The translations under genes were made by a program, and so were the position numbers. A stretch of 64,000 nucleotides of DNA, from assembly GCF_000243415.2 (NCBI RefSeq), contig NZ_KI912270.1, positions 4,917,837 through 4,981,836 on the forward strand. The letters are read 5' to 3'. Positions 16,149-36,872 of the stretch are shown here, in pieces (the first letter of the stretch is position 1; the number at the start of each line of letters is the position of its first letter). The notes under the pieces are model-generated. The model was not told the origin of the DNA. It was given only the letters and a program-made list of their open reading frames with translations, and made no database searches. Source of the DNA: Mycolicibacterium tusciae JS617. Its GTDB lineage: Bacteria > Actinomycetota > Actinomycetes > Mycobacteriales > Mycobacteriaceae.

Positions 16149-17622
16149 GAGGTTGTCCCGGTCTTCGTGGAATTTGAGGTGGCGGTCCCTCACCTGATGC
16201 CCGCCAGATGGTAGGTCTTCGGGTGAACGACCAAGTACACCTCGAAGAAGGAGTAAGGGACCGCCATGAAGACCGTACCTACTGTTCGCCTCGCTGACAC
16301 GACCGACGCCGCCGGGTTGCCTGAGCTGCCGGAGGAGATCCGGCTGGCGATGACCAGCATCGCCGGGGCGGCCCGGGAGGGGTTGTTGGCGATGAGCGTG
16401 GCCGCCGGGATGGCGGTGATGCAGACGATGTTTGAGGCCGAGATCGCCGCGGCGTGCGGGCCGAAGGGCAAGCACGACGCTGACCGGATTTCGGTGCGCC
16501 ACGGCAGTGGGAAGGGGTCGGTGACCCTTGGTGGTCGGCGGGTGCCGGTGGCCCGGCCGCGGGCACGCACTCTGGATGGGAGCGAGGTGGCGCTGAGCAC
16601 CTATGCGCACTTCGCCGCCGATGACCTGCTGACCCAGGTGGTGATGGAGCGGATGCTGGCCGGGGTGGCCACCCGCCGGCACGCCCGCACTGCGGAGCCG
16701 GTGGGCGCCCAGGTCGGCGAGGAGGCGAAATCGACTAGCCGCTCGGCGATTTCGCGCCGATTCGTGCGCCAGACCGAGACCGCGCTGGGCGAGCTGATGA
16801 GCCGCGACTTGAGCGAGCTGGACATCAAGGTGCTCATGTTGGATGGGGAGCACATGGCCCAGCGGTGCGTGGTGGTCGCGCTGGCGATCACCGCCGACGG
16901 AACGAAGGTCCCGGTCGGGCTGTGGGACGGCTCCACGGAGAACAAGACCGTGGTCCGCTCGCTGCTGGCCGACCTGGTCGAGCGCGGCCTGGCCATCGAC
17001 GATGGGCTGCTGGTCGTCTGCGACGGCGCCAAGGCGCTGTCCGCGGCGGTGCGTGAGGTGTTCGGCGCCAAGGCCCTCATCCAAAGATGTACCTTGCACA
17101 AGCGGAGAAATGTCGCTGATCATCTGCCCGACAAGGACAAGGCCTGGGTGGACGCCAAGTTGGTCAAGGCCTTCGCCCACCCTGACCCAGACACCGGGTT
17201 GCGCAACGCGAAAAGCCTTGCCGGGCAACTTGGTAAGAACTATCCCAGTGCGGCCGCCAGCCTGCGCGAGGGGCTGGAGGAAATGTTCACTGTCGCCCGC
17301 CTCGGCATCGACGGCCGCCTCGCCAAGACGTTGACCACGTCCAATCCGGTCGAGTCGATGATCTCCATCGCCCGGACCACCAATCGCAACGTCACCCGCT
17401 GGCGCGACGGGCAGATGGTGCTGCGCTGGACCGCGGCCGGCATGCTCAACGCCGAACGATCCTTCCGTCGCATCAAGGGCCACAAGCAGATGCCCCAGCT
17501 CGTCGACGCCCTGCGCCGACACGCTCACCCCGACACCGGCGCCGACACCAAATCTGTCGGTGCCGCCGCCTAGAGTTCATCGTGGATCGTCACCCAAATT
17601 CCACGCGACTCGGGACATGCTC
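16149..17622 (+). mobile_element. IS256-family element, copy 1, in the lipase gene
   Basis: The 1474-bp element has inverted ends (GAGGTTGTCCCGG left; GAGCATGTCCCGA right, read inward) and a perfect 8-bp duplication TTAGGTCG (16141-16148 and 17623-17630). Excision joins the lipase reading frame at GFDL-TFNY. A second copy, with the same deduced transposase, lies in opposite orientation at 35399-36872. Confidence 0.92.
16266..17573 (+). CDS. IS256-family transposase (copy 1)
   Basis: A 435-residue mutator-type transposase. Likely DDE residues are in VLMLDGEHM, VVCDGAKAL and TSNPVESMISI, with the family Cys/His segment QRCTLHKRRN between. It appears intact, with GAAGGAG before the ATG. The deduced protein is the same as that at 35448-36755. 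Confidence 0.9.
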   Translation: MKTVPTVRLADTTDAAGLPELPEEIRLAMTSIAGAAREGLLAMSVAAGMAVMQTMFEAEIAAACGPKGKHDADRISVRHGSGKGSVTLGGRRVPVARPRARTLDGSEVALSTYAHFAADDLLTQVVMERMLAGVATRRHARTAEPVGAQVGEEAKSTSRSAISRRFVRQTETALGELMSRDLSELDIKVLMLDGEHMAQRCVVVALAITADGTKVPVGLWDGSTENKTVVRSLLADLVERGLAIDDGLLVVCDGAKALSAAVREVFGAKALIQRCTLHKRRNVADHLPDKDKAWVDAKLVKAFAHPDPDTGLRNAKSLAGQLGKNYPSAAASLREGLEEMFTVARLGIDGRLAKTLTTSNPVESMISIARTTNRNVTRWRDGQMVLRWTAAGMLNAERSFRRIKGHKQMPQLVDALRRHAHPDTGADTKSVGAAA

Positions 17623-19844: not shown

Positions 19845-20158
19845 CAGGAGGTACCCGCCGGAGCTGCGTGAGCGTGCGGTGCGGATGGTCGCCGAGATCG
19901 GTGATCAGCACGATTCGGAGTAGGCGGCGATCAGCGACGTGGCGCGGCTGTTGGGGGTCGGCTGCGCGGAGACGGTGAGCAAGTGGGTTTGCCAGATCCA
20001 AGTTGATGGCGGCGCGCGTCCCGGAACCACGACTGATGAGTCCGCTGAGTTGAAACGCTTGAGGCGAGAGAACGCTGAATTGCGAAGGGCTAACGATTTT
20101 GAAGACAGTGTCGGCCTTCTTCGCGGCCGAGCTCGACCGGCCACAGCACCGAATGACA
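19845..20158 (+). pseudogene. IS3-family orfA remnant
   Basis: The plus strand reads PPELRERAVRMVAEIGDQHDSE, then an in-frame TAG at 19921, then ISDVARLLGVG...ETVSKWV, ELKRLRRENAELRRAN and, after a frame change, KTVSAFFAAELDRPQHR. This is the OrfA of an IS6110-like IS3 element with a stop and a frameshift. No orfB follows. The residue lies directly upstream of the depolymerase gene and contributes a false N-terminal extension to its open frame. Confidence 0.8.
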
Positions 20159-20194
20159 CACTCGGGCAACGCCCACCAAGGAATATTGTGTGCC

Positions 20195-21409
20195 ATGATG
20201 TGCGCCATGCCAACTGAACACCCAACGCTGAGCGCTACTTTCGAAGCAAGCCTCTCACCGAACGGCATCGCCGCCACCTACACACGCGCGCCGTTCCAGG
20301 CATGGAGCGCCGCCGCTCAGGGCGTCGCTCGATTCTGGAGTTCGGCGATCGACCAGGGCGAAACCCCCCTTGATGTTGTTGATACCGCCTATCGTTGGAT
20401 GCAGTCGGCATTCGAACGTAAACCTCCAACGTGGTCGACTCCCCACCAAGTAGTCCGGGAATGGCCGATAGCGCGACTGCGTGATTTCGGCGTGAGCTCA
20501 AGGTCTGATGTCGTGCCAGTGCTGGTGTTACCACCCCAAGCTGGTCACGATTCGTGTATCGCTGATTTCGCGTCAGGTCAGAGCCAGATCGAAACCATCC
20601 GAAATGTCGGGCTGGGCAGAGTGGCATCGCTCGATTGGATCGGCGCGACTTACGACACCAAGGACACAACGGTTGAGGATTATCTCGCGGTAATTGCCGA
20701 CGCCATCCAAATGCTCGGCGGACGGGTCAACCTCGTCGGGGATTGCCAAGGCGGATGGCTCGGGACGATCTATGCAGCGCTGCACCCGGAGACGGTGCAC
20801 ACGTTGACAATCGCGGGAGCGCCAATTGACACGCGTTACGGCACACCACAACTACAAGAGTGGTTCGGGATAATCAGTCCTACCCGTAGTACAGCAGCCC
20901 ATCGGATGCTCGTTGCCATGCATGCCGGGATCTTGCCCGGCCGGTACCAACTGGCCGGGTTTAAGGCTATGGAGCCTGCGGGCGAGTTCGAGCGGTTGGC
21001 CCTGTTGCTGGGCAATGCGCAGGACAAGGACGATCTGGCCCACTACGCTAAGTTCGCCGACTGGTTCGAGCACACACAGGACATCTCCGGAGCCTTTTAC
21101 CTCTGGATCGTGGAGCACCTGTTCGCGCGCAATGAGCTTGCCGCCGGAACCCTGCGGGTGGCTGAAGGGCGGGTAGACCTCAAGCGGATCCAGTGCCCGA
21201 TCTACATGATCGCCGGCGACCGAGACCACATCACTCCGGCGGAACAGGTTTGGTCGTTGGAACGATACGTATCGACCGACCCGAAGGATATGACCCGGCG
21301 TCTCGCATCTGCCGGACATCTGGGTCTTTTCATGGGACGTCACGCGTTGCAAGACCATTGGACGCCTGCGTTGACTGACATATTGCAGCGGTCGCTGCTG
21401 CCCAATTGA
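20195..21409 (+). CDS. phaZ: Intracellular PHB depolymerase-like alpha/beta hydrolase
   Basis: About 404 residues. The nucleophile is probably the cysteine in VGDCQGGWLG, replacing the usual lipase serine, as in intracellular PHB depolymerases and PHA synthases. The acid and base are likely in AGDRDHITPAEQ and AGHLGLFMGRH. Other blocks match the depolymerase family: PVLVLPPQAGH, SLDWIGA and IAGAPIDTRYG. The role would be release of 3-hydroxybutyrate from PHB granules. Starts at ATG 20195, 20198 or 20207 are possible; AAGGA lies about 12 bases before the first. The neighbouring bdhA remnant and the PHB operon support the assignment. A PHA synthase-like activity cannot be excluded. Confidence 0.72.
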   Translation: MMCAMPTEHPTLSATFEASLSPNGIAATYTRAPFQAWSAAAQGVARFWSSAIDQGETPLDVVDTAYRWMQSAFERKPPTWSTPHQVVREWPIARLRDFGVSSRSDVVPVLVLPPQAGHDSCIADFASGQSQIETIRNVGLGRVASLDWIGATYDTKDTTVEDYLAVIADAIQMLGGRVNLVGDCQGGWLGTIYAALHPETVHTLTIAGAPIDTRYGTPQLQEWFGIISPTRSTAAHRMLVAMHAGILPGRYQLAGFKAMEPAGEFERLALLLGNAQDKDDLAHYAKFADWFEHTQDISGAFYLWIVEHLFARNELAAGTLRVAEGRVDLKRIQCPIYMIAGDRDHITPAEQVWSLERYVSTDPKDMTRRLASAGHLGLFMGRHALQDHWTPALTDILQRSLLPN

Positions 21410-22295: not shown

Positions 22296-22583
22296 TCACT
22301 TCAGGGCTTCGTTAGCCAACTTGAGATAGGAGCCGGTGATGTCCTGGACGAACTTCGCGTGGGTGTTCGCCAGCGCGGTCACCCAGTCGAACTGGCTGGT
22401 GCTGGCCGCAGCCTTTTCGAAGTCGACCAGGCTCTGCAAGGTCTTCTCGTAGGTATCGAGACAGACCTGGCCCTGTTGCTTGGCCAACTGGGTTAGCTTC
22501 TCGTTCAGCTCGCGGATCCGGCTAACGGTGTCGTCGAGGGTGTCGAACGCGGTGTCGGTGTCCTTGCTGTTTGATGTTGCCAT
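22296..22583 (-). CDS. phaP: Phasin-like PHA granule protein
   Basis: A 95-residue protein starting MATSNSKDTD after an AGGAG site. It is mostly amphipathic helix: a heptad-like region (DTLDDTVSRIRELNEKLTQLA) and the segment TYEKTLQSLVDFEKAAASTSQFDWV, as in actinobacterial phasins that coat PHB granules. It is the last gene of the operon, 136 bases after phaB, so it may also have its own promoter. Confidence 0.75.
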   Translation of the reverse strand: MATSNSKDTDTAFDTLDDTVSRIRELNEKLTQLAKQQGQVCLDTYEKTLQSLVDFEKAAASTSQFDWVTALANTHAKFVQDITGSYLKLANEALK

Positions 22584-22719
22584 CTCAACTCCTTGGATTA
22601 TTGTGGTGTACAACTGGCTATTAGCCGCTTATCTAGAAATCTGCTAGTTTGCGAATCGAGTGCTGGAGTCAGACGAATTGCCCAGCGGCACCGCCTTTCT
22701 GAGTTGGGCAGACGGTCGC

Positions 22720-23553
22720 TCACATATCAAGCCCGCCGTTGACTCCCCACACTTGGCCGGTGATGTATGAGGAAGCGTCGGCGGCGAGGAAGTGCACAAC
22801 TCGGCCGATTTCTTCGGGTCGTCCGAAGCGGCCGACCGGAATCTGGCTGGTGACCTTGTTAATCACCTTCTCGGGTAACTTCGCGACCATCTCTGTGGCG
22901 ATGAAGCCCGGAGTGATGGTGTTGACGGTCAGCCCGATCCCGTTCTGACTGTTTTTGCCGGCCCTGGCCAACTGAAACGCCGCCTCCTTTGCCAGGGTCT
23001 TTGTTAACCCGAAGAGCCCTGACTTCGAGGCCGAATAGTTGGCTTGGCCGATGTTGCCGGTCTCGCCGATGACGGAGGACACGTTGATGATGCGGCCGCT
23101 GCCCCGCTCGACCATGTGTGCCAGAGCCGCCTGGGCCATAAAGAATGCGCCGGAGAGATTCACCGCAATCACGGTGTACCAGTCCTCATCGGTCATGTTG
23201 GCGACGGTTCGGTCGATGGCGATGCCAGCATTGTTGACCAGGATGTCGAGCCGCCCGTGCTGGTCGATGACCTCGCGGATTGCCCGTCGGCAGTCCTCGG
23301 CGGAAGCGACATTTCCGCGGTGCAGGCTTGGCCGTACACCCAACTGTTTCTCGTAGTCGTCGGCGAATGCCTTTGCGCGTTCGCTGTTTTGACCGAAACC
23401 GGCGGCTACGGTTGCGTGTTGGTTTCCCAGGTCCCTGCAGATCGCCGCGCCGATGCCCCGGATACCCCCGGTCACGAAAGCGACTCGGCCGCGAAGGTTT
23501 TCGCCACCCGCGGGCCACGGGGCGTCCTGCTGTTTGGTGTCCAAACTGGTCAT
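22720..23553 (-). CDS. phaB: Acetoacetyl-CoA reductase
   Basis: A 277-residue short-chain dehydrogenase with the cofactor motif VTGGIRGIG, NNAG, and the catalytic Ser-Tyr-Lys in NVSSVIGETGNIGQANYSASKSG. The C-terminal VNTITPGFIATEMV and ITGQVWGVNGGLDM are characteristic of PhaB/FabG-type enzymes. In this operon it would reduce acetoacetyl-CoA with NADPH to (R)-3-hydroxybutyryl-CoA for the PHA synthase. It has a 25-residue N-terminal extension before the Rossmann fold. It lies 38 bases after the carboxylase gene. Confidence 0.85.
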   Translation of the reverse strand: MTSLDTKQQDAPWPAGGENLRGRVAFVTGGIRGIGAAICRDLGNQHATVAAGFGQNSERAKAFADDYEKQLGVRPSLHRGNVASAEDCRRAIREVIDQHGRLDILVNNAGIAIDRTVANMTDEDWYTVIAVNLSGAFFMAQAALAHMVERGSGRIINVSSVIGETGNIGQANYSASKSGLFGLTKTLAKEAAFQLARAGKNSQNGIGLTVNTITPGFIATEMVAKLPEKVINKVTSQIPVGRFGRPEEIGRVVHFLAADASSYITGQVWGVNGGLDM

Positions 23554-23591
23554 GAAACTTTACCTCTCACTGATTTGTAGACGGACGGTTG

Positions 23592-26500
23592 TCACCGGCT
23601 GGGCCACGAGGCGGCCGTGGCCTTGGCCATGCCATGCTCGACCGCGGCGATGATCGAGGGCCGCAACTGCGTGGCGGGAATGATCGTGTGTACCGAGCCG
23701 ACGTGCTGGGCGCGTTTGATGTTGTGGATCGCCTCGAACTCGGCGGCCACCTCGCCGAGCTTGTCGGAGCGCACCGCGGCGCGCAGCGCGGCGAGTTCGA
23801 TCCGCAGGTGGGCGCGCTCGGCGTCATCTACGGCCGCCGCCAGTTTCGTCTCCAGTTCACGCAGCCCCGGATCCGCGGCGGTGCGCGCGTTGACGTCGCG
23901 TGTGAATACCACGGCTGCGGCCGGGGCACCCCCGAGGACGGACGCGAAGGAACCCTCAACGGCGAGAACCTGCATGTTGTCGTTCAGCGCGCCGGAGAAG
24001 ACCACGAACGCGCCGCCGTGATATCGCGAGATCACGCAGAACACGATGGGCCCGCTGAAGTTGACGATGGCCCTGCCGATCTCGGCGCCCAGCTCGAGCT
24101 GGACCTTGCGCAGCGATTCCGGCGACCCGTCGAAGCCCGACAGGTTCGCCAACACCACGAGCGGTCGGTTGCCGCTGGCCGCGTTGATTGCCCGGGCAGT
24201 CTTCTTCGATGACTGCGGGAACAGTGTGCCCGCGGTCCACTGGTCGGGCCCGTGGGCGGGGGCCCAGCCTTTGCGCGGGACCGCGCGGGACTCGATGCCG
24301 AGCACAGTCACCGGTTGGCCGCCCAGGTGTGCGTCGTAGATCACCGAGGTTTCGGCGTCGGCCATGTCAGCCCAGCGTTCGAGGACGTCATGGTCCTGGT
24401 CGACCACGGCGCGCATGACGGTGCGAATGTCGAAGGGCTTCTTGCGTTCCGGATTCCTCTCGGCTGAGAAGATGTCGCCGACGACAACGAAGTCGCTACC
24501 GGGACACACATGGGGGTAACTGCTGACGTCGCGATCCACCGGGTCGGTAGTGCGTGCGCGTCGCGGGAAGCGTTCACCCGGCGCCACGTAGGCGTGGTCG
24601 TAGTGCGCGAACAGGATCTTGCAGGCCGCCGTCAGATCCGGCGCCCAGTACTGCGCCTGCCCGTTCGGGCCCATCACGCGGTCATAGCCGCCGATGCCGA
24701 AGTTGTCCTCGGCGGAGACGCCACCGGAATAGTCCAGTGACTGCTTGCCGGTGAGCACCATGGCACTGTCCGGTGTCATCACCAGGATGCCCTTGGTGTG
24801 CATCAGCATCGTCGCCTCGGCGTTCCAATACGGCTGTGCGCCAACGTTGATGCCCGCGACGACGACGTTGATCTCGCCACCGGCCTGGGTGAACGTGATG
24901 ATCCGGCGCAGCCCACGGGCCACCCAGTCCATGTTCTCGGTCCCCGACTCCATCGAGATCGTCGCGCCCGAGGACAGCGCGAACCACTCGACCGGCACTC
25001 GCAGCCGTTCGGCCAGGTCGATCGCCGCCACCACCCGGGAGCACTCGGCTTCGGCGACTGTGCCCAGCGCCTTGGTCGGGTCGCCGAACAGCGCGACCCG
25101 AGTCATGCCCTCCGGGTGACGCGGCGTCGGAGTGGTCACCACGCCGACGACGATGCCTGCGGTGTTTTGTCCGTATGGCCGCTCGACAGGGACCAACTCG
25201 CCGCGTTCGTCGAGATCATGCTCGACGAATGTGCCGCTCTCCCCGGTGAGCTGCGGAACCAGCTCATACGGGTACACCGTGCCACGGGCTTGGGAGCGCT
25301 GCACCGCCTGGGCGTACCCGTCGAGGGGCCGCAGCGGCTCCGTCGCGGGGTCGCTCGCCCGCACCACCACTCCCGCGCCCGGGCGGTAGCTGAAGCTCAG
25401 CGCCACTTCCCGCGGTTCGCCCCCTGGCTGCTCGCGCACCCGACCCTTCAGCGTGATGTCCTCTAGGCCTGCGCCAACTGCCAGTGGCAGCAACGACTTG
25501 GCGATGATCGCGGCCCGCTCGATAGGCACCTCGATCACCGGCCACACATTCAACAAGATCCGGTTGGCGTCCATCTTGCGCTTGCCGTCGCGGCGGGCCT
25601 GCTCGCGCCGGATGGCGTCCAGGCACTTCGTCAGCGTCCGTTCGATCATCGGCATTCCCACGACTTGGCCCGTGGCGTCATACTCGGGGGTCACGTCGCG
25701 GATCTCGGCCAGCGCCACCAGCCGCTCATCGGCGGGATTGTCCTTGGCAACGAGGTGCAGCAGAAATGTGTCGGCGGGCGAGGCCAACCGGGTGTTGTCG
25801 AAGTTACCCAGCCGCCACAGCTCCAGCCGTTGTGCCGTCATCGGGTGCATGTCGCGCAGAACCCGGTCCTCGTCCAGCCGCCCCTCACTCGGTCGGAAGG
25901 TGAACAGCCGCGGTGCGGCACCTCCGGGGGCACACACCGCGATCGTGATGCGCCGGTATGTGGCCAGCCCCGGCAATTTGGCCAGGATCCCCTGCAGCGT
26001 CTCGGAGACGGTGTCCTCGTCCGCCGGCGGTTCTGCCCATGACATGTAGAGGTCGATGACCACGTCGCCCGGGCTGGGCAGCGGCGCCGCCAGGGTCTCG
26101 ATCTCGGCGAGAACGTCCAGCAGTTCGGCGTAGTCGGCCACGGTGGAGATCAGTTGGACGCGCGAACCGTCCCCGTCGTATTCGCCAGTGATGAACTGTC
26201 GGCCGTCGCGGTCCGTCCGCTCAGCGCGGACGTGATACGCCCGGCGGGCTATCACCTCCAGCAGCGGCCCCGGCTGCTCACCGTCCCTGCTGACCCGCGC
26301 CGCCAGCAGGTCGAGCAGCGGCTCCGGCAACGCGGCCAGCGCATCGACGCGCTGCGCATGGTCGGCGGCATGCGGGTTCTCCTCCAGGTAGGCGAGGATG
26401 CCGCGGGCCTGGTCGTACACCTGCTCGGCCGCGGCACTGATGCGCGGCTCGTCGAAGTAGCGGAACCGCAGATTGCGCGCCACGTTCCCAACGGCGGGGT

Positions 26501-29117
26501 AGCGAAGCTGGGTCGCCGCGATGATCCGGTCGAGGACATCCCCGAAACCTGTTGGCAGTGCGGCCAAGTCGCGTTCGGCGTTGAGCCAGTGTTCGAGCAG
26601 CGAGGCGATCACGGGGATCTGGTCGTCGATGTGTTGCAGGGCAAGGAAGACCCGGTACACGGCTTCCTCGAGAGCGGTGCGCCGCTGTGGGTCGGTCCCA
26701 TCGGCACCACCGAGGTCAGTCTCGACGATGCCGTAATGGCGCAGGGCGTGGCCCAACCGCGCGCAGAACGAGGCCGGCAGGCCCTCGAGTTCGACGTCGA
26801 GGGAGTGCAAGTAGGTATGGAAGTGCTCACGCGGGCTGTGCACCCGCGCGTCGGTGTCGGGCTCGTCCATCGCCGGCCGGTTCCGCGAAAGCTCACACAG
26901 GTCGGCAAAGGTGATCAGCAGCGCGAGTTCGGCCTCCACCAGCGTGGGGTCATCGCCGAGCCGGGCTGACCGCCCTTGCTCGTAGGTGTCGAGTATCGCT
27001 AGGGCGCGTTGGGTGGTCACATCGAAACCGGTGATCCAGGCACCGAGCGCATCGAGTGCGGCAAGCGCCCCGGCCTGATCGTCGCCGGCGGTTGCCGTCC
27101 CGGGCAGGTCGAACTCCACCCGAGGTGTGTGCTGGGCCGCGGCCTCTTCGACGGTCTGGTCTATCCGCAGCAGCGGTGTTCCCGGGTCGACTTGAGAATT
27201 GGTCGTGACAAGGACCTCTCGGATCCGGCCGGGGTACGGGGCCCGAATTGCGGTCTCCATCTTCATGGCCTCGAGCACGACCAGCGTGGTGCCGGTGTCG
27301 ACCTCGTCGCCCGGCGCGACCGGCACTGCGACGACCACGGCAGGCGACGGCGCCCGGATCGCGCCGGCCTCGTCCTGGCTGATCTTGTGGCTGATGCCGT
27401 CGACCTCGACCTGGTAGTGGGCAGGCCCGGGCACTGACACGACGTGGCATCGGCGCTCACCGAGCACGAGTCGGCTCTCGAACTCGCCGAGCAGATCGAC
27501 ATCCACCTCGGTCACGCCGCTGTCCCCGTCGAGCCGGTAGCGGTGCGGGGCAATCTTGCTGACCACCAACCGGTAAGACTGGCCCTGATAGCCCAGTTCG
27601 ACCAGGCGTTCGACGGTGTGCTTGGCGCGGGGCCGCCCTCCGTGTGCGGCAGCGAGGAAGGCGCTGCGCTCACTTTCGGCCTCGGTGTCGTACACGGCGA
27701 TCGCGGTGGCCAGCAGCGCGATCGCTGCGGCGGGGGTGGGTCGCTGCGCCGTGCCGGCGCCGGTGCGATCGAGCCACCCGGTGTCGGCCGAGGCGGAGAT
27801 CACCTCGGGCCGCTCAAGCAGATCCAGCAGGAAGGATTTCGTGGTCGTGCCGCCGTCGAGGACGACCGTGGTCTCGCGCAACGCGGTGCGCAGCCGGGCC
27901 AACGCCTCCGACCGGTCGCGGCCCCAGCCGATGATCTTGGCGACCATCGAGTCGTACTCCGGGGGGATGACGTCGCCCTGCGCGATGCCGGTGTCGACCC
28001 GGACGCCGGAACCAAGCGGGAATTTGAGCAGTCGCACGGTGCCCGGGGCGGGCGAGAAGCCGTTGTCGGCGTCCTCGGCGTTCAGGCGCGCCTCGACGGC
28101 GTGCCCGAATTCCGGCGGGCAGTCGCCGACCAGCTGGCCGCCACCGGCGACATGGACCTGCAACTTGACGAGGTCCAGCCCGGTGGTGGCCTCGGTGATC
28201 GGGTGCTCGACCTGCAGGCGGGTATTGACCTCGAGGAAGGTGAACTGCTGTTGCGCGGGCTGGTAGAGGTATTCCACCGTGGCCGCGCCGCAGTAGTTGG
28301 CGGCACGGACCAGTTCGGCGGAGACGCTGCGCAGCTGATCGGCTTGTTCCTCGGTCAGGAGCGGGGAGGCGGATTCCTCGATCACCTTTTGGTTCTTGCG
28401 CTGGATCGAGCAGTCTCGCACGCCCGGCGCCCACACGTTGCCGTGCGCGTCGGCGATCACCTGCACCTCCACGTGGCGGGCATTGGTGACCAGTCGCTCG
28501 AGGAACACCACCGGGTCGCCGAACGATCGCTGGGCTTCCCCCTGAGTGCGCTCGAGCGCCGATTCGAGTTCGTCCTCCGAGTAGACCTTCCGAATTCCGC
28601 GACCGCCGCCGCCGCTGCGCGCCTTGATGATCAGTGGGTAGCCGATGGCCTGCGCGTGCCGGCGCGCATCCGCGAGGGTCGCGACGTGCCCCTCGGACCA
28701 TGGCGCTACCGGAACCCCGACCTTCTGGGCCAGCAGCTTGGCCTCGACCTTGTCGCCAAGCATGCGCATCGCCTCGGCGGATGGGCCGATAAAGGTGATA
28801 CCCAGCCGCGCGCATAGGTCCGCAAACGCGGGATCCTCGGCGACGAAGCCCCACCCGACCCATACTGCGTCGGCCCTCGCCTCCATCAGGGCGCGCGCTA
28901 GTTCGGCGTGGTCAAGGTACGGTGTCGTTGCGGTGGTCGACGGCCGAAGGGTCACGCCCTCGTCGGCCTGACGAACGAACATCGCCCGCTGTTCGGCCTC
29001 GGTGTGCAGCGCAATCACGGTGACGCCGTAATTGTGTTCGGCATTGAGCTCGCGCACTGCCCGGATGGCGCGCACCGCCGCCTCGCCCCGATTCACCACC
29101 GCTATCCGCTTGAACAT
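23592..29117 (-). CDS. Single-chain acyl-CoA carboxylase (biotin carboxylase + BCCP + carboxyltransferase)
   Basis: An uninterrupted 1841-residue protein with eukaryote-like ACC order. Residues of about 1-450 are the biotin carboxylase, with the ATP-grasp glycine loop SGGGGRGIRK near 169. The biotinyl domain follows, with EAMKM at 619 as the biotin lysine. A central region of roughly 600 residues comes next. From about 1300 to the end is the carboxyltransferase (GGEINVVVAGINVGAQPYWNAEA; GIGGYDRVMGPNGQ). It should carboxylate a short acyl-CoA; acetyl-CoA to malonyl-CoA is the simplest fit with the condensing enzyme upstream. Such fused proteins occur in some mycobacteria. It sits 61 bases after the KAS III-like gene. 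Confidence 0.85.
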   Translation of the reverse strand: MFKRIAVVNRGEAAVRAIRAVRELNAEHNYGVTVIALHTEAEQRAMFVRQADEGVTLRPSTTATTPYLDHAELARALMEARADAVWVGWGFVAEDPAFADLCARLGITFIGPSAEAMRMLGDKVEAKLLAQKVGVPVAPWSEGHVATLADARRHAQAIGYPLIIKARSGGGGRGIRKVYSEDELESALERTQGEAQRSFGDPVVFLERLVTNARHVEVQVIADAHGNVWAPGVRDCSIQRKNQKVIEESASPLLTEEQADQLRSVSAELVRAANYCGAATVEYLYQPAQQQFTFLEVNTRLQVEHPITEATTGLDLVKLQVHVAGGGQLVGDCPPEFGHAVEARLNAEDADNGFSPAPGTVRLLKFPLGSGVRVDTGIAQGDVIPPEYDSMVAKIIGWGRDRSEALARLRTALRETTVVLDGGTTTKSFLLDLLERPEVISASADTGWLDRTGAGTAQRPTPAAAIALLATAIAVYDTEAESERSAFLAAAHGGRPRAKHTVERLVELGYQGQSYRLVVSKIAPHRYRLDGDSGVTEVDVDLLGEFESRLVLGERRCHVVSVPGPAHYQVEVDGISHKISQDEAGAIRAPSPAVVVAVPVAPGDEVDTGTTLVVLEAMKMETAIRAPYPGRIREVLVTTNSQVDPGTPLLRIDQTVEEAAAQHTPRVEFDLPGTATAGDDQAGALAALDALGAWITGFDVTTQRALAILDTYEQGRSARLGDDPTLVEAELALLITFADLCELSRNRPAMDEPDTDARVHSPREHFHTYLHSLDVELEGLPASFCARLGHALRHYGIVETDLGGADGTDPQRRTALEEAVYRVFLALQHIDDQIPVIASLLEHWLNAERDLAALPTGFGDVLDRIIAATQLRYPAVGNVARNLRFRYFDEPRISAAAEQVYDQARGILAYLEENPHAADHAQRVDALAALPEPLLDLLAARVSRDGEQPGPLLEVIARRAYHVRAERTDRDGRQFITGEYDGDGSRVQLISTVADYAELLDVLAEIETLAAPLPSPGDVVIDLYMSWAEPPADEDTVSETLQGILAKLPGLATYRRITIAVCAPGGAAPRLFTFRPSEGRLDEDRVLRDMHPMTAQRLELWRLGNFDNTRLASPADTFLLHLVAKDNPADERLVALAEIRDVTPEYDATGQVVGMPMIERTLTKCLDAIRREQARRDGKRKMDANRILLNVWPVIEVPIERAAIIAKSLLPLAVGAGLEDITLKGRVREQPGGEPREVALSFSYRPGAGVVVRASDPATEPLRPLDGYAQAVQRSQARGTVYPYELVPQLTGESGTFVEHDLDERGELVPVERPYGQNTAGIVVGVVTTPTPRHPEGMTRVALFGDPTKALGTVAEAECSRVVAAIDLAERLRVPVEWFALSSGATISMESGTENMDWVARGLRRIITFTQAGGEINVVVAGINVGAQPYWNAEATMLMHTKGILVMTPDSAMVLTGKQSLDYSGGVSAEDNFGIGGYDRVMGPNGQAQYWAPDLTAACKILFAHYDHAYVAPGERFPRRARTTDPVDRDVSSYPHVCPGSDFVVVGDIFSAERNPERKKPFDIRTVMRAVVDQDHDVLERWADMADAETSVIYDAHLGGQPVTVLGIESRAVPRKGWAPAHGPDQWTAGTLFPQSSKKTARAINAASGNRPLVVLANLSGFDGSPESLRKVQLELGAEIGRAIVNFSGPIVFCVISRYHGGAFVVFSGALNDNMQVLAVEGSFASVLGGAPAAAVVFTRDVNARTAADPGLRELETKLAAAVDDAERAHLRIELAALRAAVRSDKLGEVAAEFEAIHNIKRAQHVGSVHTIIPATQLRPSIIAAVEHGMAKATAASWPSR

Positions 29118-29178
29118 TGACCTGGACCACCTTCGTTGGAAGGGTTACTTTGCCGCGCAGTGTTTTTGAGTGCTTCGG

Positions 29179-31131
29179 TCAGCCGAATGCCAACTCGACA
29201 TCCCGCGATGACGGCGCCGGGAACGGCACGTGGGCCGGCTCCCCGGCCAGCTCGATCGGCGGTAAGATCGCCGGATCGATCCGCAGCACGGCGTACCCGG
29301 CGACGGCGCCGGCGCCGAAGCCAGGGGCGAAGATGCGGATCGGCCGCGTGATCACCCCCTCGCGCACAGCGTCGTGGATGGCGATCGGGATGCTCGCGGA
29401 CGACGAGTTGCCGACCCTCTCGATATTGAAGTACAGGTGTTCTGCAGAGAGCCCGGCCTTTTCGGCCAGCTCGATGACCATCGTCTTGTTGGCCTGATGC
29501 GGGACGACCAGCTCGATGCTGTCGAGCAGCGAGCCGCCGGCGCCGTCTGGGTTGGGCAGCGCCGCGATCTCGCCCAGCATCTGTTCGAGGTAACGCCCGG
29601 CGAGGGCTTTGACCTCGGGCCCGTAGACAGTAATGGAGTTGTCGAAGTCCGGGTTGGGCCAGATGATCGAATTCACTTGGCTGGACGGGCCGCTCGCGTA
29701 GATCTGCAGGAACTCAATATCGGGCGGCTCCCCCGCCTCTGCCACGCCGAGCAGGACCGCGGCCGCCCCGTCGCCGAAGATCATCCGCGACGGACGCACG
29801 CTGCCGATTTTGTCGGAGAACTTCTCCACGCACACCAGCAGCACCGGGCGGCGGGTCTGTTGCAGGGTCCGGGTGGCCTCGGCGAGCCCGTACGGCAGCC
29901 CAGCGCACGCCGCGATCAGGTCGAAGGAGCCCTGAGTCTGGAAGATCCCCAGCTCGCCGGAGATCCAGCAAGCCAGCGACGGGATCAGCCGCGAACTGGT
30001 GCAGCTGCACACCAGCACCGCCCCGATCTCCTCAGGCCCGATCTGCGCGTGCAGTACCGCCGCCTTCGCGGCATGCAGCGCGAGGTCCTCGAGCGTGCCG
30101 GAGGTGTAACGGCGCTGCTCGATCCCGGTCTTGGCCTGGATGTCCGCGGCGGTCATCGGCGACCAGTTGTAGGCGGCGTTGCGGATCAGGTCCTCGTTGG
30201 TGCACACCAGATCGCCCTCGGCGACGGCGAGCGCCTTGATCTTCGGCCACACCGCGAAGTCGGCCCGCACTTCGATGGCCGAGTACGGCCGGGCCGGGGC
30301 CACCGGCGCCACAAAGTTCGGCGACAACCGCTCCGGGATCCTGGTCCCCTTGGTGACGCGGTCGATGAAGCGCTCTACCTGCCGATCGCGCGGTTCGAAG
30401 ACCACCACGTAGTCGTCGTCACGCAATTGCGCCACCTCGACCAGCTCGGCCTTTGCTCGGTCCCAGGGATACTGGTTATGCAGGACCATCACCCACCGGC
30501 GCAATGCCTCCAATTCGGCGACCTGCTCGTGGCAGTCGATGATCTCGGCGTAGCTGAAGCGGGGGAAGTCCGGGTCGTAATCCCCCAATCGCAGCGTCAG
30601 GTTACGTGGATCGGACATCAGTCGCGCCACAGTCGGGCGCACCGCCGCGGTGATGCGCGGTGGGGCGGTCGCGTGGCTGCGGCGGGTGCCGAAGATGCCG
30701 AACAGTTCCCCGAAGATGCGCTGCTCGACCGCCTCGTCCCAGCGAGCGGGCAGGGTCGGAAACACGTTGGCGACCGCAGCCACTTTGGTCTCGCCGTCGA
30801 CCCACGGGGTGAGGATCGGCACGTAAATGTCGTCGCGTCCGCGCGGAACATCGGCCCACCGGGTCGGCCGCTTGTTGAACATGGTGATCATGTAGCGGTT
30901 TACCCAGAACAGGTTCAACGCCATATCCCGCATCAGCTCGAACTTGTCGCGGTAGCCGCCTCGCTGGATGCGCGCGAGGATGTCGCTACCGGTGGGCGCC
31001 TTGGCGTCGAAGTCGCGGCGAATCACGGCCTCGAACTGCTCGATCCCCCTAAGGGTGGAGAAGTCGAGATCGGGAAAGAAGTTGCACGGGAAGACGATCC
31101 GTCCGTGGCGGTTGAGTTCGATAGGCTGCAT
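29179..31131 (-). CDS. KAS III-like condensing enzyme with long N-terminal extension
   Basis: A 650-residue protein. The C-terminal 380 residues form a FabH-like thiolase fold: catalytic Cys near 409 (LIAACAGLPYG), His near 544 (VVPHQANKTM) and Asn near 574 (IERVGNSSS). Typical FabH is only about 320 residues; the first 270 residues here are an unrecognised domain rich in Trp, Arg and aromatic residues. In this operon, between a malonyl-CoA-forming carboxylase and PhaC with PhaB beyond, the likely reaction is condensation of acetyl-CoA with malonyl-CoA to acetoacetyl-CoA, as known for NphT7-type enzymes. That is inference from context; a role in a longer acyl chain is possible. Confidence 0.8.
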   Translation of the reverse strand: MQPIELNRHGRIVFPCNFFPDLDFSTLRGIEQFEAVIRRDFDAKAPTGSDILARIQRGGYRDKFELMRDMALNLFWVNRYMITMFNKRPTRWADVPRGRDDIYVPILTPWVDGETKVAAVANVFPTLPARWDEAVEQRIFGELFGIFGTRRSHATAPPRITAAVRPTVARLMSDPRNLTLRLGDYDPDFPRFSYAEIIDCHEQVAELEALRRWVMVLHNQYPWDRAKAELVEVAQLRDDDYVVVFEPRDRQVERFIDRVTKGTRIPERLSPNFVAPVAPARPYSAIEVRADFAVWPKIKALAVAEGDLVCTNEDLIRNAAYNWSPMTAADIQAKTGIEQRRYTSGTLEDLALHAAKAAVLHAQIGPEEIGAVLVCSCTSSRLIPSLACWISGELGIFQTQGSFDLIAACAGLPYGLAEATRTLQQTRRPVLLVCVEKFSDKIGSVRPSRMIFGDGAAAVLLGVAEAGEPPDIEFLQIYASGPSSQVNSIIWPNPDFDNSITVYGPEVKALAGRYLEQMLGEIAALPNPDGAGGSLLDSIELVVPHQANKTMVIELAEKAGLSAEHLYFNIERVGNSSSASIPIAIHDAVREGVITRPIRIFAPGFGAGAVAGYAVLRIDPAILPPIELAGEPAHVPFPAPSSRDVELAFG

Positions 31132-31172
31132 GACCTGAATGCTCTCCTGGGCAGTTGGTAGTTCCGATGTCG

Positions 31173-32819
31173 CTACTTTTCGAGCACGTAGCGTCCTGGC
31201 GCTGGGTCACCGGCGGCATGGTTATGGCTGCCGAGGTTTTCGCGGGCTGGCATCTGCTCTCCAGAGCGCGCGGTAAGCCACTCGACCCAGTGCGGCCACC
31301 ATGAGCCGTCGTGCCGGTCCGCGCCGGCCAGCCACGCGTCGGCGTCGCGGCCGCCCGCGGGTCCGGCGTGATAGCCGGCGCGCGCCTTGCCGGGCGGATT
31401 AACAATGGTCTGGATGTGTCCCGTCGAGGTGACTACGACCTCGCTGCTTCCGCCGAGCAGTTGGCTGGTCAGGTAACAGGGTTTCCAGGGCGTGATGTGG
31501 TCGGTCCGGCCGGCCACGATGTAGGTGTCGCAATCCACCTTCGACAGGTCGATCGGGGTCCCCAGCACGGTCACTCCGCCGGGTGTGGCGGCGGCATTGT
31601 CGGCATACAACTCGATAAAGTCCCGATCGAGTGCGGCGGTGAGGTTCGACGAATCGGCGTTCCAGGCCAGGATGTCGAACGCTGGCGGGTTCTCGCCCAT
31701 CAGCCAGTTGTTGACCACGTAGTTGAAGATCAGGTCGTTGGGGCGCATCCACGCGAAGTTCGACGCGAGGTCCCCATTCTTATAGATGCGCTTGGCGGCC
31801 GCGTCCTTGTTCAGGGTGCGGCGCACATGTTTGGTGGCCAACACCTCGATCAGGCTGGGCTCGCTGGTGTCGATCATGGTGACGATGAAAGCGGCGGCGT
31901 GCACGCCGTTGGGGTCGGCCGCGGCAAGATGTCCCAGCATCAGCGCGGTGGTCAATCCGCCGGCGCAGGCTGCCAGTACATTCACGTCGTCCGCGTTGCT
32001 GATTTCGCGCACGATGTCGAGTGCCCGCAGTTGAGCTGCCACGTAGTCGTCCATGGCCCATCCGCCGTGCTCCGGGCCGGGGTTGCGCCAGACGATTGTG
32101 AAGAACGAGATTCCTTGCGCTACAGTGTATTCCACGAGGCTTCGGCCCGGTGCCAGGTCGAGGCAGTAGTACTTGTTCACCTCCGGCGGTATCATCAGCA
32201 ACGGTCGGGAGTAGACCGTGGGCGTCGTCGGGGCGTATTGCAGAAGTTCGAACATTTCTTCGCGGTGCACTACGGCGCCTGTGGTGGCGGCCATGTTCCC
32301 ACCGACGATGAACGGGTCAGCATCGACTTGGGTGGGCATGCCTCGGTTGAAAATCAGGTCGTTGACGAAGTTGCGGGCGCCGCGCAGCAGGCTCGCCCCG
32401 CTGGTTTCGAATGCACGCTTCAATACCGCGGGATTGCCCGGTAACAGGTTGGTCGGCGCGGTCAGCGCGGTGAGCGCACTGGTCGCGTAGCGGGCACGGA
32501 CGCGTTCACGCTCGTCCACGTCGGCGGTCTCGACAAGCCTGTCGACCGTCTCGCACCAAGCCAGGTAGGCCTGGGCCAAACGCTTGTACCACAGGTTGTC
32601 CCGCCAGGTCGGGTCGCTGAACCGAGCGTCTTTTGCCGGAAGCTGCACTTCACTGATTCCAGCCGCGATCCGCGTCCACTCCATGAAGAGTGCCGGCGCC
32701 TCCTGCGCAAGTCGCCAGGGCTTTGCTATGTCCCGCAGCGCACCGAGCAACTCGTAGGGGTCCATGCGACCCATTGCGTCGGCGCCGCCGATAGCAAGGC
32801 TCGCCAATTCGCCGTTCAC
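31173..32819 (-). CDS. phaC: Polyhydroxyalkanoate synthase
   Basis: A 548-residue alpha/beta hydrolase-fold synthase of the class I/II type. The lipase-like box is AACAGG with the catalytic Cys at 285. The acid Asp is in AGRTDHITPW and the His in STGHIQTIVNPPG. The N-terminal synthase domain includes RFSDPTWRDNLWYKRLAQAYL. It polymerises hydroxyacyl-CoA on granules. The GTG start overlaps a 44-codon open frame by four bases (GTGA). The operon continues with the condensing enzyme 41 bases downstream. The last 50 residues are ordinary for the family (WWPHWVEWL). Confidence 0.9.
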   Translation of the reverse strand: MNGELASLAIGGADAMGRMDPYELLGALRDIAKPWRLAQEAPALFMEWTRIAAGISEVQLPAKDARFSDPTWRDNLWYKRLAQAYLAWCETVDRLVETADVDERERVRARYATSALTALTAPTNLLPGNPAVLKRAFETSGASLLRGARNFVNDLIFNRGMPTQVDADPFIVGGNMAATTGAVVHREEMFELLQYAPTTPTVYSRPLLMIPPEVNKYYCLDLAPGRSLVEYTVAQGISFFTIVWRNPGPEHGGWAMDDYVAAQLRALDIVREISNADDVNVLAACAGGLTTALMLGHLAAADPNGVHAAAFIVTMIDTSEPSLIEVLATKHVRRTLNKDAAAKRIYKNGDLASNFAWMRPNDLIFNYVVNNWLMGENPPAFDILAWNADSSNLTAALDRDFIELYADNAAATPGGVTVLGTPIDLSKVDCDTYIVAGRTDHITPWKPCYLTSQLLGGSSEVVVTSTGHIQTIVNPPGKARAGYHAGPAGGRDADAWLAGADRHDGSWWPHWVEWLTARSGEQMPARENLGSHNHAAGDPAPGRYVLEK

Positions 32820-32950
32820 CGAATGTCACCGCCTGGTGGTGCCCACGTGCTGCTTACCGTAAAGGTCACTTGACCCAGTGATCGGTCGGCGGACAACGCG
32901 TCTGCGGTGCTGTGCAACTCGTCAGTGTCAATGCCGTTGAGTTTGTTCAT
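32816..32950 (-). CDS. 44-aa open frame overlapping the phaC start
   Basis: The frame from ATG 32950 reads MNKLNGIDTDELHSTADAL and ends TGA inside the phaC GTG start. The segment LHSTADALSADRSLGQVTFTV resembles the N-terminus of OsmC-like proteins, so it may be a truncated relic. Alternatively it may be a short leader that couples ribosomes to phaC. No strong ribosome site is seen. Confidence 0.4.
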   Translation of the reverse strand: MNKLNGIDTDELHSTADALSADRSLGQVTFTVSSTWAPPGGDIR

Positions 32951-33016
32951 CGTGTGATTCCTGGTTCTCAGAATGGTTACAGGTCGGCGATGCAGCGAAA
33001 CGCGTTTCACAACAGG

Positions 33017-35398: not shown

Positions 35399-36872
35399 GA
35401 GCATGTCCCGAGTCGCGTGGAATTTGGGTGACGATCCACGATGAACTCTAGGCGGCGGCACCGACAGATTTGGTGTCGGCGCCGGTGTCGGGGTGAGCGT
35501 GTCGGCGCAGGGCGTCGACGAGCTGGGGCATCTGCTTGTGGCCCTTGATGCGACGGAAGGATCGTTCGGCGTTGAGCATGCCGGCCGCGGTCCAGCGCAG
35601 CACCATCTGCCCGTCGCGCCAGCGGGTGACGTTGCGATTGGTGGTCCGGGCGATGGAGATCATCGACTCGACCGGATTGGACGTGGTCAACGTCTTGGCG
35701 AGGCGGCCGTCGATGCCGAGGCGGGCGACAGTGAACATTTCCTCCAGCCCCTCGCGCAGGCTGGCGGCCGCACTGGGATAGTTCTTACCAAGTTGCCCGG
35801 CAAGGCTTTTCGCGTTGCGCAACCCGGTGTCTGGGTCAGGGTGGGCGAAGGCCTTGACCAACTTGGCGTCCACCCAGGCCTTGTCCTTGTCGGGCAGATG
35901 ATCAGCGACATTTCTCCGCTTGTGCAAGGTACATCTTTGGATGAGGGCCTTGGCGCCGAACACCTCACGCACCGCCGCGGACAGCGCCTTGGCGCCGTCG
36001 CAGACGACCAGCAGCCCATCGTCGATGGCCAGGCCGCGCTCGACCAGGTCGGCCAGCAGCGAGCGGACCACGGTCTTGTTCTCCGTGGAGCCGTCCCACA
36101 GCCCGACCGGGACCTTCGTTCCGTCGGCGGTGATCGCCAGCGCGACCACCACGCACCGCTGGGCCATGTGCTCCCCATCCAACATGAGCACCTTGATGTC
36201 CAGCTCGCTCAAGTCGCGGCTCATCAGCTCGCCCAGCGCGGTCTCGGTCTGGCGCACGAATCGGCGCGAAATCGCCGAGCGGCTAGTCGATTTCGCCTCC
36301 TCGCCGACCTGGGCGCCCACCGGCTCCGCAGTGCGGGCGTGCCGGCGGGTGGCCACCCCGGCCAGCATCCGCTCCATCACCACCTGGGTCAGCAGGTCAT
36401 CGGCGGCGAAGTGCGCATAGGTGCTCAGCGCCACCTCGCTCCCATCCAGAGTGCGTGCCCGCGGCCGGGCCACCGGCACCCGCCGACCACCAAGGGTCAC
36501 CGACCCCTTCCCACTGCCGTGGCGCACCGAAATCCGGTCAGCGTCGTGCTTGCCCTTCGGCCCGCACGCCGCGGCGATCTCGGCCTCAAACATCGTCTGC
36601 ATCACCGCCATCCCGGCGGCCACGCTCATCGCCAACAACCCCTCCCGGGCCGCCCCGGCGATGCTGGTCATCGCCAGCCGGATCTCCTCCGGCAGCTCAG
36701 GCAACCCGGCGGCGTCGGTCGTGTCAGCGAGGCGAACAGTAGGTACGGTCTTCATGGCGGTCCCTTACTCCTTCTTCGAGGTGTACTTGGTCGTTCACCC
36801 GAAGACCTACCATCTGGCGGGCATCAGGTGAGGGACCGCCACCTCAAATTCCACGAAGACCGGGACAACCTC
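35399..36872 (-). mobile_element. IS256-family element, copy 2 (inverted relative to copy 1)
   Basis: Boundaries were set by comparison with copy 1: shared sequence ends at GAGCATGTCCC on the left and ...GGGACAACCTC on the right. The flanking octamers differ (GACGAACT left, GGCGCCGA right), so there is no target duplication. The left neighbour is the broken frame at 34879 and the right neighbour is the start of an AAA ATPase gene. Flanking DNA has therefore been lost or rearranged. Confidence 0.88.
35448..36755 (-). CDS. IS256-family transposase (copy 2)
   Basis: A 435-residue protein with the same deduced sequence as the copy at 16266-17573, so the two copies are very recent relatives. DDE motifs and the QRCTLHKRRN segment are intact. 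It is a likely substrate for homologous recombination with copy 1. Confidence 0.9.
   Translation of the reverse strand: MKTVPTVRLADTTDAAGLPELPEEIRLAMTSIAGAAREGLLAMSVAAGMAVMQTMFEAEIAAACGPKGKHDADRISVRHGSGKGSVTLGGRRVPVARPRARTLDGSEVALSTYAHFAADDLLTQVVMERMLAGVATRRHARTAEPVGAQVGEEAKSTSRSAISRRFVRQTETALGELMSRDLSELDIKVLMLDGEHMAQRCVVVALAITADGTKVPVGLWDGSTENKTVVRSLLADLVERGLAIDDGLLVVCDGAKALSAAVREVFGAKALIQRCTLHKRRNVADHLPDKDKAWVDAKLVKAFAHPDPDTGLRNAKSLAGQLGKNYPSAAASLREGLEEMFTVARLGIDGRLAKTLTTSNPVESMISIARTTNRNVTRWRDGQMVLRWTAAGMLNAERSFRRIKGHKQMPQLVDALRRHAHPDTGADTKSVGAAA

Follow-up and report, generated by a model that had tools for sequence, protein, structure and literature searches.

The window analyzed here, a stretch of 64,000 nucleotides from the 7.3-Mb genome of Mycolicibacterium tusciae JS617 (four contigs; C4:4917837-4981836), contains on its minus strand a five-gene operon (22296-32819) for a polyhydroxyalkanoate (PHA) synthase PhaC, a KAS III fusion protein termed KSx, a single-chain acyl-CoA carboxylase (ACC), a PhaB-like reductase and a small protein, in that order. 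We conclude that this operon is probably a dedicated, ATP-driven feed for PHA, to which carboxylase, KSx, PhaB and PhaC would all contribute. The enzymes carry the expected catalytic residues, and the association of their genes is conserved in other genomes.

All five open reading frames (ORFs) are open. Their common strand, their positions and the intergenic gaps of 41, 61, 38 and 136 bases, the last one counted to the ATG start of the small-protein gene at 22583, agree with a preliminary description of the locus. Stretches of AGGAG and AAGGAG are located upstream of the KAS III and small-protein genes. The names given there to PhaC, KAS III, the single-chain carboxylase and PhaB are supported in kind by Pfam and NCBIfam, with PhaC and PhaB below the narrower NCBIfam cut-offs; the fifth name, phasin, has no family match behind it. 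As had also been described, phaA is missing from the cluster: all 31 thiolase-family matches of the genome lie outside the window. In comparison with the classical phaCAB operon, known from Cupriavidus and marked by a PhaA thiolase, PhaC and PhaB are shared, whereas here the carboxylase and the KAS III enzyme replace PhaA. A 64-codon ORF (32816-33010, minus strand) overlaps the PhaC start by four bases and could represent either a small coupled gene or the remains of a gene.

KSx (650 aa; 29179..31131) is a fusion of an N-terminal domain (residues 1-285; 30277..31131) with a KAS III domain (residues 296-618; 29278..30246) and is proposed, on the basis of its sequence, to act as an acyl-CoA:malonyl-CoA condensing enzyme. 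Its KAS III part was recognized by phmmer against KAS III chains of the PDB (best 2.8e-36) and by ACP_syn_III (PF08545, 42.6 bits) and ACP_syn_III_C (PF08541, 73.2 bits), both over cut-off. The Cys-His-Asn triad (Cys409, His545, Asn575), which we take to be catalytic, is retained in 81 of 81 sequences, and the AlphaFold model (pLDDT 82.5) gave a KAS III fold in Foldseek. The nearest named KAS III relatives occur in Rhodococcus with 71% identity, and metagenome relatives reach 91%. KSx falls short of the FabH model TIGR00747 (143.9 bits, cut-off 292.1). Thr550 occupies the site of the Arg that follows HQANx in four distinct aligned KAS III structures (2ebd, 4wzu, 4ylt, 4nhd) and that presumably serves docking of the acyl carrier protein (ACP) in FabH enzymes. 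Thr was found at this site in 119 of the 120 best KSx proteins (the nearest 120 of 3990 phmmer matches, KSx of the window included), and 17 loci found by profile exhibit HQANKTM (16) or HQANRTM (one). Since HQANKTM is among the peptide patterns used to find the 80-locus set described below, counts of Thr550 in that set are biased; the 120-protein count is less so. The replacement of Arg by Thr fits a loss of ACP docking in KSx.

For the N-terminal domain of about 285 residues no match was obtained in Pfam or, by sequence and by fold, in the PDB, and a search for shorter relatives also yielded no function. Among the best 120 of its 757 relatives, those with names are designated as KAS III, as partial or as hypothetical proteins. 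Relatives of 405-466 aa without a KAS Pfam domain were observed on contigs longer than 1 Mb (for example P0185 and P0227); they are split genes or stand-alone forms, and a true stand-alone form of the domain may thus exist. The best KAS III C-terminal match in the genome (L001; G000:C4:2888517-2888789) belongs to a protein of 340 aa in which NQPN takes the place of the HQAN of KSx. A first look at the four PF08541 matches of the genome, which may miss some, revealed no other protein with a FabH-like motif.

The carboxylase (1841 aa; 23592..29117) exhibits a eukaryote-type layout. Biotin carboxylase (BC) domains (Biotin_carb_N, CPSase_L_D2 and Biotin_carb_C; residues 1-450; 27768..29117) are followed by a biotin carboxyl carrier (BCCP) domain (Biotin_lipoyl, 55.2 bits; residues 587-652; 27162..27359), an ACC_central stretch (PF08326, 56 bits, cut-off 23.2; residues 1052-1201; 25515..25964) and a carboxyltransferase (CT) domain (Carboxyl_trans, 117.9 bits; residues 1337-1838; 23604..25109). 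The AMKM motif at 617-620 holds Lys619, presumably the site of biotin attachment. Having the order BC-BCCP-ACC_central-CT within a single polypeptide of about 1850 aa and being related end to end, by BLAST, to further multidomain carboxylases of bacteria, the protein belongs to the bacterial single-chain multidomain ACCs. Nine carboxyltransferase matches occur in the genome, this protein among them. SACE_4237 of Saccharopolyspora erythraea, an enzyme of the same kind, likewise combines BC, BCCP, central and CT parts in one polypeptide of about 200 kDa and carboxylates acetyl-CoA and propionyl-CoA, not palmitoyl-CoA (Livieri et al., PMC6491548).

PhaC (548 aa, GTG start; 31173..32819) is identified as a PHA synthase by PhaC_N (184 bits) and a lipase-type box with Cys, AACAGG. 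The PhaB-like acetoacetyl-CoA reductase (277 aa; 22720..23553) is a short-chain dehydrogenase/reductase (adh_short); its best NCBIfam model is the acetoacetyl-CoA reductase TIGR01829 (269.7 bits, cut-off 302.1), followed by the FabG model TIGR01830 (263.9 bits). The Cys of AACAGG, Asp440 and His468 of PhaC as well as Tyr173 and Lys177 of the reductase are present, and we assume that they are catalytic. The PhaC_N match of the operon is the sole one in the genome; therefore, the single PhaC of the organism adjoins KSx and the carboxylase.

From these assignments we infer the following route. The carboxylase would convert acetyl-CoA to malonyl-CoA with ATP being spent. KSx would take an acyl group, acetyl or perhaps propionyl, from CoA onto Cys409 and condense it with malonyl-CoA, rather than malonyl-ACP, under release of CO2, giving acetoacetyl-CoA or 3-ketovaleryl-CoA. 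With CO2 lost and ATP spent beforehand, this step would be practically one-way. PhaB would turn the product into the (R)-3-hydroxyacyl-CoA, which PhaC would polymerize; granule coating may fall to the small protein, and mobilization of the polymer to a hydrolase encoded convergently with the operon. The core idea of the preliminary description, an ATP-driven entry into polyhydroxybutyrate (PHB), receives strong support from comparison, namely from the company of the genes, retained in several families despite frequent rearrangement, and from the usual presence of PhaC in KSx genomes (39 of 46 and 16 of 16, see below). PHB as the sole product is not, since propionyl-CoA as a possible starter would lead to 3-hydroxyvalerate. 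The product is very probably PHB or a close copolymer.

To follow the gene company across genomes, relatives of KSx were collected (at least 592 pattern matches, at least 265 confirmed) and neighborhoods were counted in the best 80 of the 265, with neighbors located by tblastn. A carboxylase of the same type occurred in 55 of these loci, PhaB in 49, PhaC in 29 and any of the three in 63. In 41 loci the carboxylase is found on the same strand at most 200 bases from KSx. Among the 51 loci whose flanks extend 8 kb or more in either direction, the corresponding counts are 38 for the carboxylase, 34 for PhaB and 19 for PhaC. Roughly estimated, the chance that a single gene falls within 20 kb in 5 Mb is 0.4% per locus. 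The widest recurring neighbor clusters are carboxylase, PhaB, PhaC and an alpha/beta hydrolase, with annotation restricted to clusters in more than nine loci. The order varies considerably, and 20 order-and-strand strings were counted, some distinct only through contig ends: PhaB-ACC-KSx with PhaC opposed in Geodermatophilaceae, ACC-PhaB-KSx in Rhodococcus (R. aetherivorans, L005; R. ruber, L006), KSx-ACC-PhaB in Pseudonocardia and PhaB-KSx-PhaC-hydrolase-ACC-small protein in Mycolicibacterium hodleri. That the company is retained despite the changed order is good evidence for a shared task. The small protein has a relative in 2 of the 80 loci. In the two Rhodococcus clusters a protein of 155-160 aa is encoded directly upstream of the carboxylase (L005 298-765, L006 2183-2665); the L005 copy has no Pfam match.

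The presence of PhaC also tracks that of KSx on the genome level. Among 401 genomes of the window's family KSx occurs in 16, all of which hold PhaC_N, compared to 97 of the 401 overall. The hypergeometric value of 5e-11 is uncorrected for kinship and overstates independence, because 14 of the 16 KSx genomes belong to one genus. A second test covered the genomes of 46 of the 80 loci, reached through named loci; PhaC_N was detected at E 0.001 in 42 of them, over cut-off in 40 and strongly (E <1e-29) in 39. In a distant member of the phylum (G292), PhaC, KSx and carboxylase are found within 12 kb. Protein distances correlate between KSx and ACC (0.90), KSx and PhaB (0.88), ACC and PhaB (0.95) and KSx and PhaC (0.79), partly due to shared ancestry. 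Alignment A2 (44 rows) is without L083, which has a stop in frame, and L054. The PhaCs of KSx clusters are only 39-50% identical to that of the window. Judged by these sequences, KSx, carboxylase and PhaB seem to form a core that has been combined with differing PhaCs.

Several findings weigh against a dedicated PHA feed. No carboxylase, PhaB or PhaC was found near KSx in 17 of the 80 loci, or in 11 of the 51 with full flanks. Seven of the 46 KSx genomes are without a strong PhaC, namely four Rokubacteria, a Deltaproteobacterium metagenome-assembled genome, Micrococcus Bu38 and Citricoccus. In the latter two, both Micrococcaceae (L022, L036), KSx still adjoins the carboxylase, suggesting that the pair can serve something besides PHA; the seven neighbors scanned in L022 gave no hint of another product. 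The Rokubacteria loci (L064, L065, L071, L083) exhibit KSx without PHA genes or a multidomain carboxylase nearby. A two-subunit carboxylase was expected there and was not among the five neighbors scanned in one locus, L065, which comprise an amidase, an amidohydrolase, a methyltransferase and a two-component pair. In a phylum-wide sample of 296 genomes, ACC_central occurs in 20 and KSx in two, in both together with the carboxylase. The other 18 of the 20 are without a KSx match, one of them (L150) with a 69% identical carboxylase; therefore, the carboxylase is not bound to PHA use. In accordance with this, SACE_4237 is essential for fatty acids in S. erythraea, in contrast to the location of the present carboxylase in a PHA operon, and when the main text of that study was searched for 'polyhydroxy', 'phaC', 'ketoacyl' and 'operon', none of these terms was found (PMC6491548). 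A carboxylase tree was built from 44 rows, 29 KSx-linked (a chosen subset) and 15 of the 18 from KSx-free genomes (G100, G151 and G181 left out). The KSx-linked carboxylases are spread over several clades among unlinked ones, and five label changes are needed, at least four of them forced by well-supported branches. The linkage therefore arose or was lost several times.

A further point against the proposed feed is the presence of thiolases outside the operon. It is the cluster that is thiolase-free, not the organism: 12 of the 31 PF00108 matches have near-full coverage, and the thiolase L085 is far over the cut-off for acetyl-CoA C-acyltransferase (454 bits, cut-off 240.55), with acetyl-CoA C-acetyltransferase as its top model (463.7 of 526 bits). 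Thiolases were also present in 14 of 14 KSx genomes tested. Acetoacetyl-CoA can thus form without KSx, and the route would be an added one-way entry rather than a stand-in for a missing enzyme. Relatives of the genome's own thiolases flank KSx in two of 81 neighborhoods (12 valid queries, one partial; ORFs from our own caller), in L063 at 8.5 kb from KSx and in L071 as a distant relative (31%).

These thiolases lend some weight to the alternative that survives best, which we nevertheless consider unlikely. Here thiolases elsewhere would supply acetoacetyl-CoA, and KSx and the carboxylase would mainly add odd-chain or other 3-ketoacyl-CoA, for example 3-ketovaleryl-CoA from propionyl-CoA and malonyl-CoA, so that the operon sets the copolymer composition. 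This alternative overlaps with the ATP-driven feed, which leaves the starter open, and the two are not exclusive. A high valerate content is classically put down to propionyl-CoA supply, which speaks against it. Genomes of R. aetherivorans and R. ruber hold ACC-PhaB-KSx, and a carboxylase of the SACE_4237 type also accepts propionyl-CoA (PMC6491548). In strains differing from those sequenced, R. ruber NCIMB 40126 is reported to form a copolymer with 60-91% 3-hydroxyvalerate on several substrates, and R. aetherivorans IAR forms the copolymer from toluene (PMC7502451); both reports are in line with a role in composition.

Use of malonyl-ACP by KSx, which would place the enzyme in fatty-acid or polyketide initiation with the adjacent PHA genes merely sharing precursors, appears improbable. 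The closest solved relatives of KSx are indeed FabH enzymes, fatty-acid synthesis in S. erythraea is supplied by a carboxylase of this type (PMC6491548), and KSx stands apart from PHA genes in loci of Rokubacteria, Actinomycetospora and Millisia. However, the Thr at the FabH Arg site in all but one of the 120 best phmmer-listed proteins and the tracking of KSx by PhaC argue for the malonyl-CoA-dependent PHA feed, as do the widest recurring neighbors, although fatty-acid genes are possible among the clusters found in nine or fewer loci. Slightly less probable still is a medium-chain or mixed PHA, with KSx lengthening longer acyl-CoAs by two carbons. PhaC of the window scores higher on the class II model (553.6 of 855.4 bits) than on class I (464.3 of 622.65; NCBIfam), below both cut-offs, and three of five other cluster PhaCs tested behave alike. 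In the remaining two class I is higher, the class models may fail to separate actinobacterial synthases, and the top model of the reductase is that of an acetoacetyl-CoA reductase. A function in breakdown or redox balance, with KSx as thioesterase or decarboxylase and the carboxylase as anaplerotic enzyme, would fit the depolymerase- or PhaC-like hydrolase adjoining the operon but is very improbable in view of the complete condensing-enzyme triad in 81 of 81 sequences and the synthase and reductase in the same operon.

The acetoacetyl-CoA synthase NphT7 from Streptomyces sp. CL190 has a Cys-His-Asn triad and is a single-domain enzyme of a mevalonate cluster. Its similarity to KSx concerns this triad and the KAS III-type decarboxylative condensation of acetyl-CoA with malonyl-CoA proposed for KSx; KSx differs by its 650 aa with the extra N-terminal domain and by its location beside PhaC, PhaB and the carboxylase. 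The same pathway logic was realized in Synechocystis with engineered phaC-nphT7-phaB, in which malonyl-CoA and acetyl-CoA give acetoacetyl-CoA for PhaB and PhaC; in the construct as outlined in PMC3899235 there is no carboxylase gene. In plants the NphT7 route is known as pathway II, and engineered sugarcane is cited (PMC10530661). Compared with the engineered pathway, the present operon is natural, brings its own carboxylase and is spread among many actinobacteria. The PHA loci of Rhodococcus jostii RHA1 were reported not to be clustered with ketothiolase or reductase (PMC2667194). These loci and those of R. ruber resemble the operon in having PhaC with a depolymerase nearby, away from ketothiolase, and differ in being without the reductase as well; the separate ACC-PhaB-KSx cluster of R. 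ruber (L006) goes unnamed in the sections of PMC2667194 considered here. No natural PHA operon of this form was found in titles and abstract openings of the open-licence PMC literature, subscription papers being outside this scope, and a term search of PMC8146576 was also without matches. The reaction and the engineered pathway are already known; within the literature covered, novelty appears to lie in the natural operon, in its distribution and in the N-terminal domain of KSx.

The small protein (22296..22583, 95 aa from ATG, or 22296..22613, 105 aa from TTG; minus strand) is phasin-like by position only. No Pfam or NCBIfam family, phasin families included, was matched, and the named ones among its 81 relatives are all hypothetical proteins, so that the designation as phasin could not be maintained. 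The two other KSx loci with a relative are L007 and L021. Convergent with the operon, a PHB-depolymerase- or PhaC-like alpha/beta hydrolase (436 aa; 20099..21409, plus strand) was identified by DUF3141 (65.2 bits) and PHB_depo_C (48.4 bits); it remains under the cut-off of the class III PhaC model TIGR01836 (111.7 bits, cut-off 365.3), and a GDCQGG Cys elbow is read from its translation. A relative is located at the end of the cluster in M. hodleri (L007). The hydrolase is a possible PHA mobilization partner.

Further out, identical 1474-bp copies of an insertion sequence, Mutator-type by Pfam and presumably akin to IS256, flank the operon in inverted orientation (16149-17622, plus strand; 35399-36872, minus strand). 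They may suggest a composite transposon carrying the operon. An 8-bp duplication of its own, TTAGGTCG, borders the left copy on either side, whereas no duplication accompanies the right one; this speaks against the assignment. Since 11 near-identical full-length copies occur in the genome, the operon was not necessarily mobilized by these two acting jointly.

In the usual scheme, PHA synthesis begins with a reversible thiolase step. For the conserved gene module described here, PHA supply is the most likely task, and the most likely chemistry is that of the preliminary description with acetyl-CoA or propionyl-CoA as starter. A wider proposal, for and against which we see equal grounds, is that actinobacteria evolved and spread a dedicated PHA pathway driven by malonyl-CoA as a natural counterpart of the NphT7 route. 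In it, a novel type of KAS III, carrying a domain without a fold match in the PDB, would work with a eukaryote-type carboxylase, perhaps physically coupled via that domain, and the pathway might underlie the valerate-rich copolymers of Rhodococcus. The KSx pathway gives the unexplained N-terminal domain a testable role, and the joint occurrence of carboxylase and condensing enzyme offers ready parts for bioplastic engineering. An ATP-paid, practically irreversible entry into PHA could explain carbon storage at low acetyl-CoA in some actinobacteria.

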